This document shows, one piece after another, positions 59,233 to 64,000 of a stretch of DNA of 64,000 bases. Each line of letters opens with the position of its first letter. Position 1 is the first letter of the stretch. The DNA is taken from positions 414,618 through 478,617 of the forward strand of contig NZ_LMSS01000002.1 of assembly GCF_001429605.1 (NCBI RefSeq), in the 5' to 3' direction. Below the pieces are notes generated by a model, which saw only the letters and a list, made by a program, of their open reading frames with translations, made no database searches and was not told where the DNA came from. Made by a program: the position numbers and the translations under genes. Origin of the DNA: Phycicoccus sp. Soil802 (GTDB lineage Bacteria; Actinomycetota; Actinomycetes; Actinomycetales; Dermatophilaceae).

Positions 59233-59255
59233 GGCGGGCGCGCGGTCCTCCCCGT

Positions 59256-59354
59256 GCACCTCCTCTGCACCTCCTCTGCACCTCCTCTGCACCTCCTCTG
59301 CACCTCCTCTGCACCTCCTCCACACCTCCTCTGCACCTCCTCGGCACCTCCCGC
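59256..59354. repeat. nine tandem copies of an 11-bp repeat after the acyl-CoA synthetase gene
   Basis: The unit GCACCTCCTCT is repeated nine times, four inner copies slightly changed. It begins 23 bases past the stop codon. On the reverse strand it reads AGAGGAGGTGC, i.e. repeated Shine-Dalgarno-like tracts. Confidence 0.95.
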
Positions 59355-60035: not shown

Positions 60036-61364
60036 TTGGACCCCGAGTACCGTGAAATCGGCGGTCCGCCGGGTCCGCTGGGGTATCAGAGCGGGCCGGG
60101 GCTGCCAGTGCGGACTTACCCATATGCGTTTCACGTCGCCCTCGACGGCAACGGACTGAACGGGCTCGAGGGCCGGGCGGGCGTGTGCCTGTTCCACTAC
60201 GACCCCGTCACCGGCGACCACGCCTACAAGGTCACGTACTTCGGCGGAGCGTCCGGTGGGCACGCGCCGAGTGTCGACCCCAGCCGGCGGATCGGCTTCC
60301 TGGGCAACACGGGTCAGCACCTGCTCTTCTACGACCTCGCGACGCTGGAGGAGGCCGACCGGGTCTCGACCCTGCGGTTCGAGGTGCCCGACACCACGAT
60401 CAAGGGCAGCACCCACGTGGTCTGGCTCGACGACACGCAGTTCGTCACGTCGATCGGCGAGCACCTGTGGAAGTTCGACGTCAACCGCCTCACCAAGGCC
60501 GAGCAGGTCGCACCCCACGGGCTGAAGATCCCGCACGCGATGAAGCGCACCGCCTCCGGCCGCTACATCGTCTACGGCGGGATGGACCACCCGACCAGGG
60601 GTGAGGCCAAGGAGGTCGGCATCCTCGACACCGTGACGGGCGAGGTCCGCCGGATCACCCTGCCGACCACCTGCTGGCACGTCGTCTGCCATCCGGTGCT
60701 CGACGTCTTCTACGCGATCTCGTTCAGGGTCAACGCCGCCGACCGCTCGGACTACGAGCACTGGGGCATGGCCTGGCTGCGCCAGTACGCGTTCGAGATC
60801 GACGCCGAGGACGGTCGGGTGGTGCGGCACTGGGCCGCCGACCGCGACCTGCCGGCCCACATCAACTCCGACGTGACGATCTCCGACTCCGAGCTGATCT
60901 TCTGCACCGGCGGCAGCCACACGGTCGTCTTTGTCGACCTGCTCACGCTGAGCCAGCACCGGCTCATCGACGAGCACCCGGGCGCGCTGGAGAGCCTCGC
61001 CCTCACCCGTCAGTCGGCCAACACCGTCGCCGAGTCGGTCATGCGCGGCAACTTCTTCAGCAACTCCAACCTCTATGCCGAGTCGCTGCGGGTGAGCCGC
61101 GGCGCCCTGGTCGACGGCATCTATGCGTGCCAGCTCTCGGCCGACCAGACCCTGCTGTTCACCGCGAACCGCGGCCAGAACCACATCACAGTCTACGACT
61201 ACCCGTCCCTGGCGGTCCGCGACCGGATCGTCATGCCGGAGCTCCAGGAGTTCGACCCACGGTTGGCCGCGTGGGGTGACCCCCGACTCGGGTTCCACCA
61301 CTCCTACCTCGTCAGCCCCGACGCCGCCTCGTCCGAGGCACCCAGTCCCGCAGGAGCCCACTGA
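60036..61364 (+). CDS. beta-propeller-like protein, first gene of an unrecognised cluster
   Basis: 442 residues from TTG 60036; the frame is closed 16 bases upstream (TGA 60018-60020). GAGG lies three bases before, so the start is weak; GTG 60108 is an alternative. The body repeats beta-strand units with conserved turns (GASGGHAPSVDPSRRIGFLGN, GSTHVVWLDDTQFV, TGGSHTVVFVDLLT, GQNHITVYDYP), as expected for a seven-bladed propeller. It is rich in His, Trp and Asp. No signal peptide. I do not recognise the family. The next gene starts at its stop codon (TGATG). Confidence 0.82.
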   Translation: MDPEYREIGGPPGPLGYQSGPGLPVRTYPYAFHVALDGNGLNGLEGRAGVCLFHYDPVTGDHAYKVTYFGGASGGHAPSVDPSRRIGFLGNTGQHLLFYDLATLEEADRVSTLRFEVPDTTIKGSTHVVWLDDTQFVTSIGEHLWKFDVNRLTKAEQVAPHGLKIPHAMKRTASGRYIVYGGMDHPTRGEAKEVGILDTVTGEVRRITLPTTCWHVVCHPVLDVFYAISFRVNAADRSDYEHWGMAWLRQYAFEIDAEDGRVVRHWAADRDLPAHINSDVTISDSELIFCTGGSHTVVFVDLLTLSQHRLIDEHPGALESLALTRQSANTVAESVMRGNFFSNSNLYAESLRVSRGALVDGIYACQLSADQTLLFTANRGQNHITVYDYPSLAVRDRIVMPELQEFDPRLAAWGDPRLGFHHSYLVSPDAASSEAPSPAGAH

Positions 61365-61840
61365 TGGCCGACTACACGATCGACACCACCGTCTTCGGCG
61401 GAAACACGTTCAGCTCCGACGTCACTGCGGACGTGACCTCGAGCCTCACCGGGCTCGACAACATGAAGCTCACCCTCGCGGGTGGCACCACGAACACGAA
61501 CAACGGCGAGAACACCGTCCACAGTGACGCCACCATCACCCTCGAGCCGGTCACGACGACGTCGACGGTCAACACGACCTCGAGCATCGAGTCGAGCTCC
61601 GACGTCACGTCCAACGCCAACGTCGCGACGACGTCGAGCGTCGACCTCAAGCCGGTGGCGGTCGACACCTGCGTGCGGCTCGAGCTCGGACCGCCACCAG
61701 CCACCGAGGTCTGCACGCCCTACGAGCAGACGTGGGGGTGGTCGGTGCTCGGCCTGGAGCTGTTCGCGCTCACCGTCCGCGGCAGTGCCACGGCGCACAT
61801 CCGGCCCGAGCACCACGGCCCCGTCGTGATCGACCTGTGA
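61364..61840 (+). CDS. Ser/Thr-rich beta-repeat protein of unknown function
   Basis: 158 residues from ATG 61364, overlapping the previous stop by one base; GAGC/CAGGAG is just upstream. The middle half is almost all Ser, Thr, Asn, Asp and Val (TSSLTGLDNMKLTLAGG, SSIESSSDVTSNANVATTSS), with a repetitive strand-turn rhythm. Two cysteines lie in VDTCVRLELGPPPATEVC, and the end is TAHIRPEHHGPVVIDL. No signal peptide or membrane segment. Unrecognised. Confidence 0.8.
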   Translation: MADYTIDTTVFGGNTFSSDVTADVTSSLTGLDNMKLTLAGGTTNTNNGENTVHSDATITLEPVTTTSTVNTTSSIESSSDVTSNANVATTSSVDLKPVAVDTCVRLELGPPPATEVCTPYEQTWGWSVLGLELFALTVRGSATAHIRPEHHGPVVIDL

Positions 61841-61847
61841 GCCCGTC

Positions 61848-62549
61848 GTGACCACCGCCCGCCGCAAACCAGCGAAGGCCACAGCCGCCAAGGCCACGGC
61901 CGCGAAGGCCACACCCGCGAAGGTCACAGCAGCGCAGCCGTCATCCGACGCGATCGTGCTGACCGGGCCGCCCGGTCTGCTCAGGGCGACCGTCTCGGTG
62001 GAGAACGCCGTCGACCAGCGCGTCGCGGTGCGGGGACTCACCCTGCACCGCAGCGGGCAGCAGGCCCTCGCCGGCGCCGGCGCGGCCGTGATCGCCCCGG
62101 GTGCCACGGCCCAGGTCCCGGTCTCCTTCCGACTCGAGCCGGACACCCCGCCGGGTGAGTACCCGGCGGAGGTGGAGGTGGGCGGCATCCGTCGGGAGGC
62201 GGTCCTACGGGTCGAGCCCGACCTCTCGATGCACGTCTCGCCACGGCGGGTGATGGCCGAGGTGGGCGGCTCGGCGGTCACGATCACCGTGACCAACGAC
62301 GGCAACCTCCCGATCCCGCTGGCCGCCGTCGTGCGCGCCCGCACCGACGACGGCGGACCCGACCCGGGCCCCGACGTCACCCTCACGCTGACCGACGCGA
62401 CGACTGCCGCGCCGGGCACCACCTCCGTGCTCCGGGGCAGCCTCAGCGTCCCCGACGAGCTCGACCCCACCCGTCGGCACACCGCACGGGTCCCGGTCGG
62501 CACGGCCGACCTCGACGTCATCATCCTGCCTCGCGACCCATCGGAGTGA
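61848..62549 (+). CDS. protein with Lys/Ala repeat and Ig-like module, unrecognised
   Basis: 233 residues from GTG, seven bases after the previous stop. N-terminal repeat of Ala/Lys (AKATAAKATAAKATPAKV). Then two Ig-like beta-sandwich regions with typical turns: LRATVSVENAVDQRVAVRGL... VPVSFRLEPDTPPGEYPAEVEVG and VTITVTNDGNLPIPLAAVVRA. These resemble the CARDB/COG1470-type Ig modules seen in secreted and some cytosolic proteins. No signal peptide is visible. Confidence 0.8.
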   Translation: MTTARRKPAKATAAKATAAKATPAKVTAAQPSSDAIVLTGPPGLLRATVSVENAVDQRVAVRGLTLHRSGQQALAGAGAAVIAPGATAQVPVSFRLEPDTPPGEYPAEVEVGGIRREAVLRVEPDLSMHVSPRRVMAEVGGSAVTITVTNDGNLPIPLAAVVRARTDDGGPDPGPDVTLTLTDATTAAPGTTSVLRGSLSVPDELDPTRRHTARVPVGTADLDVIILPRDPSE

Positions 62550-62554
62550 TCACC

Positions 62555-63439
62555 ATGAGCACCACCGCACCCGAGTACCTCACCTCCCTGCGCGACGGCT
62601 TCGCCGATGCCGTGCAGCAGTGGGTGGACCAGTCGACGACCGCCTGGGACCAGTGGCAGCAGGCCTGGTCGCCGGTCGTCGAGGCAGCAGGGCTCGGTAT
62701 GCCGGGTGCTCCCGGCACAGCCCCCGGTCGCCGGTCGAAGGGTGCGCGCGGCCACGGCCACGGCCACGACCAGCACCACGAGCACGGGCACGACCACCAC
62801 CAGCACGGGCACGACCACCACGAGCACGGGCACGACCACCACGAGCACGGGCACGACCACCAGGGGTGCGGCTGTCACGACCGGTGCGGGTGCGGCGATG
62901 TGTGTGACTGCTGCGTGCCGGCGGCGGACGTGATCGTCCACGCCCGGGCCGGTGAGGTGCGCGTGGTGCCCTTCAGGCTCCACAACCCCTGGCGTCGCGA
63001 GCGCGAGGTGTCCCTCGAGGTCGGGCCCTGGCACGGCTGCGACGGTGACGACCTCGAGATCCGCGCGGTCCTGGAGGAGGAGAAGGTCGTCCTGAAGCCG
63101 TGCGAGGACAGGGTGGTCCGGCTGCTGGTGTCGACCCGCGGCGACGGCTCGTCGACCAGCAGGTCCGCGGACGTGGTCGACAAGGCGGAGCCCAAGGACC
63201 CGGCATCGGACGCACCCACCAAGCCCACCAAGGCGGCCGCAGCCGCAGCTGCGGCGCGTGAGTCCGTGGACGTGGTGGTCGCCTCGAGGAGCCGGACCGC
63301 CGACGTCGACTCGTGCGTGAGTGCCTATGCGGACGTCCGCTTCGAGGGCTGCGCGCGCCCGCAGCGGGTCGCCGTCGTGGTGCTGCCCGCGGAGTGCGAC
63401 GCGGTCGACCTGGGCTGCGACTGCGGATGCTGCTGCTAG
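62555..63439 (+). CDS. His/Cys-rich protein with Ig-like module, unrecognised
   Basis: 294 residues from ATG 62555, five bases after the previous stop. N-terminal helix with Trp and Gln (FADAVQQWVDQSTTAWDQWQQAW), then a His-rich tract of four HHxHGHD repeats (residues 74-101), then a Cys cluster (GCGCHDRCGCGDVCDCC). A beta-sandwich module follows (VIVHARAGEVRVVPFRLHNPWRREREVSLEVGPW), then a Lys/Ala linker and a cysteine-rich C-terminus ending CDCGCCC. The His and Cys tracts are likely metal-binding. No signal peptide. Confidence 0.82.
   Translation: MSTTAPEYLTSLRDGFADAVQQWVDQSTTAWDQWQQAWSPVVEAAGLGMPGAPGTAPGRRSKGARGHGHGHDQHHEHGHDHHQHGHDHHEHGHDHHEHGHDHQGCGCHDRCGCGDVCDCCVPAADVIVHARAGEVRVVPFRLHNPWRREREVSLEVGPWHGCDGDDLEIRAVLEEEKVVLKPCEDRVVRLLVSTRGDGSSTSRSADVVDKAEPKDPASDAPTKPTKAAAAAAAARESVDVVVASRSRTADVDSCVSAYADVRFEGCARPQRVAVVVLPAECDAVDLGCDCGCCC
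62774..62857 (+). repeat. four 21-bp units encoding the His-rich tract
   Basis: Four near-identical 21-bp units (one varies GAG to CAG), in frame, encode HHEHGHD repeats in the His/Cys-rich protein. Confidence 0.95.
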
Positions 63440-63449
63440 GAGGAGTGTC

Positions 63450-64000
63450 ATGACGGAGACGAACAGCACCGACGAGACGCTGGCCCGGATCACCGAGCTG
63501 GCGCGCCAAGCCCTGCAGTCACAGTCGACCCTGGCCAAGCAGTCGCTCGAGCTGGGCCGGGCGGCCCTGTCCGGCGATGTCGACCGGTCCACCACCAGCA
63601 AGGCCTACCTCGACGCCGTGAGCCGCGAGGGCGCGCGCTACTGGCGTGAGGCCAGCGCCCTGGGCCTCGACTACGCCAGCGAGCTCATGGCGCTGGGCAC
63701 CCGGAGTGCGGCCCGCATCATCAGCGACGCCTCCGCTGCCGGCGGCACGCGGGTGCGTCGCGGCACCACCACCTCGCGCACCGGCGCTCCGCCGGCGCCG
63801 CCGGCCGAGCCGGACGACGGGGTCCGCCGCTCACGGGTGCACCTGCGAGCGGCCGTGGGGCAGACCGCCCAGGGCACGGTCACGGTCGTCAACCGGCACC
63901 CACGCGCCCGTCGCGTCGAGCTGGAGCCCAGCGACCTGCGCGACGCCACCGGCACGGTGGTCGCGCTCAGCCTGGAGGTCGAGCCCGAGCACGTGACGAT
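63450..64000 (+). CDS. phasin-like helical protein with Ig-like module, cut by the window edge
   Basis: The frame starts at ATG 63450 with AGGAGG upstream, ten bases after the previous stop, and runs to the end of the window (183 codons, open). The first ~90 residues are helical and amphipathic (ARITELARQALQSQSTLAKQ, SREGARYWREASALGLDYAS), as in phasins or other granule-binding proteins. After a Thr/Pro-rich linker (TRTGAPPAPPAEPDDG) an Ig-like module begins (VHLRAAVGQTAQGTVTVVNRHPRARRVELEPSDL). No signal peptide. The layout matches the 62555 protein, so the genes are related. Confidence 0.8.
   Translation, partial: MTETNSTDETLARITELARQALQSQSTLAKQSLELGRAALSGDVDRSTTSKAYLDAVSREGARYWREASALGLDYASELMALGTRSAARIISDASAAGGTRVRRGTTTSRTGAPPAPPAEPDDGVRRSRVHLRAAVGQTAQGTVTVVNRHPRARRVELEPSDLRDATGTVVALSLEVEPEHVT

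Follow-up and report, generated by a model that had tools for sequence, protein, structure and literature searches.

A conserved, sporadically distributed actinobacterial gene set built around a beta-propeller protein and immunoglobulin-type proteins in Phycicoccus sp. Soil802

Here, we describe a five-gene operon, g1 to g5, at the right-hand end of a 64,000-nucleotide stretch of the Phycicoccus sp. Soil802 genome (hereafter the window; G000:C2:414618-478617, where G and L codes are genome and locus labels). The operon faces two genes, one for a short-chain dehydrogenase/reductase (SDR) and one for a DUF362 protein. It is nearly certain that these genes belong to a conserved system that occurs sporadically in actinobacteria, and the best explanation of our data is an accessory system of ~7 genes, in which g1 and g5 are the usual core and g2-g4 an optional block. 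As to its function, we tentatively favor a cytosolic scaffold or coat of phasin-like helices and immunoglobulin (Ig)-type modules, combined with a core of SDR, DUF362 protein, and metallo-propeller that acts on a hydrophobic substrate other than polyhydroxyalkanoate (PHA). Taken as a whole, the set has no described counterpart among the libraries and literature searched; the literature, judged by titles and abstract openings, yielded no description of it.

The features are as follows; window-scale coordinates extend the window numbering past 64,000, where the sequence is that of locus L003.

60108..61364, + strand: g1, seven-bladed beta-propeller, 418 amino acids (aa) (orthologue starts, AlphaFold, 15-sequence alignment)
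61364..61840, + strand: g2, 158 aa, repeat-like N-terminal part and conserved C-terminal segment (composition, alignment)
61848..62549, + strand: g3, 233 aa, Lys/Ala-rich N-terminal tail and at least one Ig-type module (profile relation to g5)
62555..63439, + strand: g4, 294 aa, helix-like N-terminus (by eye), His/Cys spacer, and Ig-type domain (profile relation to g5)
62774..62862, + strand: 21-bp tandem repeat inside g4, encoding four HHxHGHD units (repeat scan)
63450..64145, window-scale, + strand: g5, 231 aa, helices and PapD/ASH-type Ig domain, running past the window edge at 64000 to L003:6763 (orthologue model)
64093-65226, window-scale, - strand: SDR gene, beyond the window (Pfam)
65223-67466, window-scale, - strand: DUF362 protein gene, beyond the window, longest open reading frame (ORF) (Pfam)

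That five tightly spaced genes share one strand had been proposed in an earlier note made from the sequence alone, and the ORF coordinates agree: g1 and g2 overlap by 1 base, and the following spacings are 7 bases (g2-g3), 5 bases (g3-g4, with ATG at 62555), and 10 bases (g4-g5). Given their G+C content at third codon positions of 0.91-0.95 and their conservation, we take all five, on the + strand, to be real genes, and together they are one operon. The longest g1 ORF opens at TTG 60036, whereas orthologues begin at the codon equivalent to GTG 60108; the later start is therefore preferred, TTG 60036 probably lying 72 bases upstream of the true one. The cluster does continue past the window as predicted, but only by 145 bases, at which point g5 terminates. 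The SDR gene then lies tail-to-tail with the operon, the 3' ends of g5 and SDR overlapping by 53 bases (L003:6711-6763; the overlap has equal length in L009 and L010), and the DUF362 gene comes next. Since these two genes are convergent with g5, the operon is read as five genes facing a two-gene partner, which the earlier note had missed. A promoter and terminator scan yielded no useful result.

The earlier note's view that the five proteins are soluble and unrecognised also held. We found no hydrophobic leader or transmembrane-like stretch in g1-g5 (highest 19-residue Kyte-Doolittle mean, 1.58), and none of them exceeded a Pfam or NCBIfam family cut-off. The nearest to one was g5 (fn3_5, 26.2 bits versus 27.6), the best matches of g4 were His-rich transporters below cut-off (E 0.07-0.12), and no Gvp gas-vesicle family was among the Pfam/NCBIfam matches of the five. 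PHROGs and PADLOC returned nothing convincing (best E 0.027 for g5 in PHROGs and 0.046 for g1 in PADLOC). In addition, searches of viral contigs with g1 and g4 found no relatives, and a plasmid collection held no match to g1, to the g2 and g3 homologues of locus L034 (described below), or to the DUF362 protein.

A g1 scan of genome contigs returned 16 loci. Further searches with g1 gave five matches among 296 genomes of the class, eight among 119 of the family, and two among 66 from the class to which G559 belongs. One of the five class matches, G056 (L008), was excluded from the count of g1-bearing genomes, as its 27-30% identity covers half of g1 only and reflects general propeller likeness. 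After duplicate records were merged by contig coordinates, 24 g1-bearing genomes were left. All five genes occur in 13 of them (G000, G048, G158, G027, L009-L014, L022, G559, and G616), five have g1 and g5 without g2-g4 (L016-L019 and G833), and the locus is cut off in two (L015 and G908). The g5 gene accompanies g1 in 18/18 non-Pseudonocardiaceae genomes readable at that place. The neighborhood is conserved beyond Micrococcales, the order in which the earlier note proposed to look for it. The linked genes behave similarly: an SDR gene stands near g1 in all 17 genomes that could be read for it, as does the C-terminal domain of the DUF362 protein in all 16, fused to DUF362 in 15 of these (not L036). 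In G158, the SDR and DUF362 pair lies ~7 kb from the operon.

The genes g2, g3, and g4 are gained or missing as a block, and no g1-bearing genome whose whole stretch was readable has a partial one. Full five-gene sets are found in both deep branches of the g1 tree, which was midpoint-rooted and has long branches. Terrabacter MAHUQ-38, which is without the block, is nested in the tree among Terrabacter that have it. We consider joint loss of g2, g3, and g4 the simplest interpretation. The nearest relative of the g1 of the window is the g1 of Pedococcus bigeumensis, followed by that of Phycicoccus sp. Root101. Among 396 genomes of the phylum, the g5 profile matched 5 and the g3 profile 12, five of the latter strongly and seven weakly (E 2.8e-7 to 9.7e-4).

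The g1 protein is the best-defined member. AlphaFold modelled it as seven four-stranded blades (mean predicted local distance difference test score, pLDDT, 79.8; blades assigned by hand from the strand list), in agreement with the propeller that had been suspected from the sequence. Of its 418 positions, 134 are invariant across an alignment of 15 diverse sequences, and 11 of these are His. In six of the seven blades, an invariant His falls within -5 to +4 of the inner-strand start, a pattern reached by random invariant columns in 0.33% of trials (P 0.0033, for a window set after the model was seen). Because of this arrangement, a metal site is suggested, with H52, H103, H143, H191, H251, and H397/398 as candidate ligands, and g1 is likely a metallo-propeller and probably an enzyme. 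The invariant His at inner-strand starts resembles that of His-ring metallo-propellers such as carotenoid oxygenases and nitrous oxide reductase. The g1 protein differs from these in that, up to an E-value of 1, Pfam gave no match and in that it has no convincing sequence relative in the PDB (best sequence match, E 0.14); no family model of carotenoid oxygenase or another named propeller enzyme matched it. Its fold matches are generic propellers, including the zinc chaperone AztD (10% identity).

Ig-like modules had been proposed for three of the proteins, and all three are supported, g5 by a model and g3 and g4 by profile. The L009 orthologue of g5 (82% identical) was modelled with three helices (4-43, 49-73, and 79-104), a disordered linker, and an Ig-like sandwich mostly above pLDDT 90, which Foldseek assigned to the PapD/ASH type (best E 4.7e-7). 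This domain is therefore of the kind seen in fimbrial chaperones, CEP192, and ciliary central-apparatus proteins, although identity is 8-21% in the listed matches, g5 has no leader, and no usher or pilus gene was recognised in the loci read. With one Ig domain after helices, and no leader, g5 also departs from the two-domain periplasmic chaperones of the PapD type. Across 12 g5 members, Pfam matches are mostly Ig-type. Comparison by hhalign gave probabilities of 90 for g4-g5, 87 for g5-g3, and 0.6 for g4-g3; by profile, g3 and g4 each share an Ig-type module with g5 but are not tied to each other.

The phasin-like helices of the earlier note are plausible, with weak backing: helices are modelled in g5, but matches to Phasin_2 (PF09361) stay below cut-off, with one of the 12 members at E 0.069 and the L018 orthologue discussed below. 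Like PHA-granule phasins such as PhaF and PhaP, g5 is helical, soluble, and without a signal peptide. It differs from them in that a PapD/ASH-type Ig domain follows the helices, in that its operon also encodes a propeller, and in that no PHA synthase was found in the host genome G000 (4.29 Mb, 9 contigs, 99.97% complete).

In g4, 12 Cys are invariant over nine orthologues. The four HHxHGHD repeats reported earlier are exact and are encoded by the 21-bp tandem repeat, which has 4.2 copies at 97% match. A six-frame search of 13 other loci, including L048 with its incomplete g4, did not find them. The repeats are thus confined to this strain, and the metal-binding segment proposed earlier is, unlike the 12 Cys, not conserved; the array is probably a recent expansion. 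The nine aligned g4 sequences contain 5 to 35 His, and the spacer is therefore His-rich in some other species too. As for g2, it is Ser/Thr-rich (28%), with a repeat-like N-terminal part and a C-terminal segment that is conserved. The Lys/Ala-rich N-terminal tail of g3, which varies in length between species, is encoded in the window by a 15-bp tandem repeat (61872-61934).

A related arrangement was observed in G511, where L034:7950-14838 holds homologues of g2, g3, and g5 and a second helix-plus-Ig protein, adjoining polyprenyl synthetase and methyltransferase genes. No g1 was found in this genome and no g4 was recognised in the locus, which may represent a second use of the scaffold.

The linked SDR matches Epimerase and 3Beta_HSD in Pfam. 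The DUF362 protein exceeds the cut-off for PF04015 (27.9 bits versus 24), and its C-terminal domain matches Polyketide_cyc2 below cut-off (19.1 bits versus 27.4). DUF362 shares Pfam clan CL0471 with DUF2088, and in a study of the LarA (lactate racemase family) clan it serves as an outgroup only (PMC11770544). The large linked protein resembles that clan through its DUF362 match; it differs in that DUF362 is here fused to another conserved domain, and nickel-pincer chemistry is not implied. Neighbors of g1 in Pseudonocardiaceae include a class-III aminotransferase and an MMPL transporter (Pfam-tested in L023) as well as a small START-like protein matching Polyketide_cyc (Pfam-tested in L024), and g1 is flanked on either side by free-standing homologues of the DUF362 protein's C-terminal domain. 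These neighbors point weakly to hydrophobic chemistry, the hints being the SDR matches, the MMPL and Polyketide_cyc neighbors, and the polyprenyl synthetase of L034.

In the scaffold or coat model that we favor, the enzyme core would be cytosolic and consist of the SDR, the DUF362 protein, and g1, whose propeller channel would contain a metal. This core would oxidise, reduce, or carry a substrate that is hydrophobic (isoprenoid-, polyketide-, or lipid-like). Amphipathic helices of g5 would bind the hydrophobic phase or product, phasin-fashion, while g2-g4 would assemble via Ig modules to build the scaffold or coat, which the cysteines of g4 might harden or load with metal. A bolder form of this model, which we rate as rather unlikely, is a new type of inclusion, in which a cytosolic enzyme assembly, or a hydrophobic body other than PHA, would have a phasin-Ig coat and a Cys-rich, metal- or disulfide-hardened Ig layer and would carry the His-ring metallo-propeller, the SDR, and the DUF362 protein. 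Were there such an inclusion or enzyme scaffold, it would constitute a new bacterial compartment type without PHA, together with a new metallo-propeller family; the chemistry of the set may also prove ordinary. Five operon proteins with no Pfam or NCBIfam match above cut-off that are kept together across distant actinobacteria form a defined target, and close relatives, some of which lack the g2-g4 block, allow a natural comparison with and without the scaffold.

Several observations weigh against the favored model. The candidate substrate, the metal, the localization, and the coating of any body are all things that we infer. The g5 helices have low to moderate confidence in the L009 orthologue model (pLDDT mostly 50-73), and their likeness to phasins is weak (L018 orthologue versus Phasin_2, E 0.0011, 19.5 bits, cut-off 24.9). 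The windows of the His-ring test were those chosen with the model in view. The label "SRPBCC-like" for the C-terminal domain of the DUF362 protein comes only from the sub-threshold match, and homologues of this domain in L024, L021, and L036 have no match. The MMPL and aminotransferase neighbors are confined to one family. PHA synthase was detected in five of the 20 genomes examined (19 with g1, plus G511; a single family model, PhaC_N, PF07167, with some genomes being drafts). Finally, the earlier note had named occurrence of the proteins singly as a point that would count against a conserved set; the set is conserved in most genomes, but g1 was found without g2-g5 in the flanks read of 4 of the 24, all Pseudonocardiaceae (L020, L021, L023, and L024), and a whole-genome search of L024 with the g5 profile found no g5. 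The scaffold is therefore not always needed.

Among the alternatives, a role in metal handling, in which the Cys-rich g4 binds Zn, Cu, or Ni and delivers it to the His-ring propeller g1, the others being structural partners, seems somewhat improbable to us. The 12 invariant Cys and the His/Cys-rich spacer of g4, the invariant His ring of g1, and the presence of AztD among its fold matches are consistent with it. However, g4 was not found in the g1 flanks of 9 of the 24 genomes, the HHxHGHD repeats are strain-specific, and AztD is one of many generic propellers in the list.

We consider it unlikely that the genes form a tailoring module for secondary metabolism (type III polyketide or UbiA meroterpenoid), in which g2-g5 would play an accessory part and there would be no coat. 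Genes for UbiA, type III polyketide synthase (PKS), and ICMT run divergently from the operon in four Terrabacter loci (L011, L012, L014, and L016), and in G000 a UbiA-like/type III PKS/ICMT-like trio lies ~83 kb from the operon, its PKS at G000:C2:391123-392190, to the left of the window. In genomes at least 90% complete, PKS occurs in 4/5 with g1 and 35/96 without (p 0.07). Against this, the counts are 4/8 versus 41/111 (p 0.47) over all 119 family genomes and 1/2 versus 33/94 (p 1.0) in complete genomes outside the genus of the window. Moreover, two congeners have PKS without g1, and 5 of 20 genomes checked have no PKS over cut-off.

Quite unlikely, in our view, is a coat of resting cells, or a complex of the cell surface or envelope whose export uses no classical signal, in which the Ig and Thr-rich proteins would be structural layers. 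The PapD/ASH folds, the Ser/Thr-rich g2, the Cys-rich g4, and an MMPL exporter adjoining g1 in Pseudonocardiaceae would suit it, whereas no signal peptide or transmembrane segment was detected in g1-g5 and the linked SDR is of a cytosolic enzyme type. Lastly, a PHA granule coat with g5 and g4 as phasins, one form of the granule coat suggested earlier, is very improbable because PhaC_N had no match in G000; nor was it found in 14 of the 19 others checked, no PHA enzyme was recognised in the loci, and g5 matches are mostly Ig-type, against which stand the helix-like N-termini of g4 and g5, the sub-threshold L018 match, the five PhaC_N-positive genomes, and the Lys/Ala-rich tail of g3, which resembles PhaF-type tails.

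Some minor observations concern the samples and the left flank. L019, which carries g1 and g5, is a metagenome-assembled genome titled Acidobacteria. However, the sample labelled as the phylum of G654 includes G742, whose g1 match has coordinates identical to those of G048, which places it in the phylum of the window, and we regard the title or the binning as doubtful. Directly to the left of the operon, an 11-bp tandem repeat, TGCACCTCCTC (8.8 copies, 94% match, window 59255-59351), lies at the 5' end of the longest ORF encoding a Nudix-domain protein.

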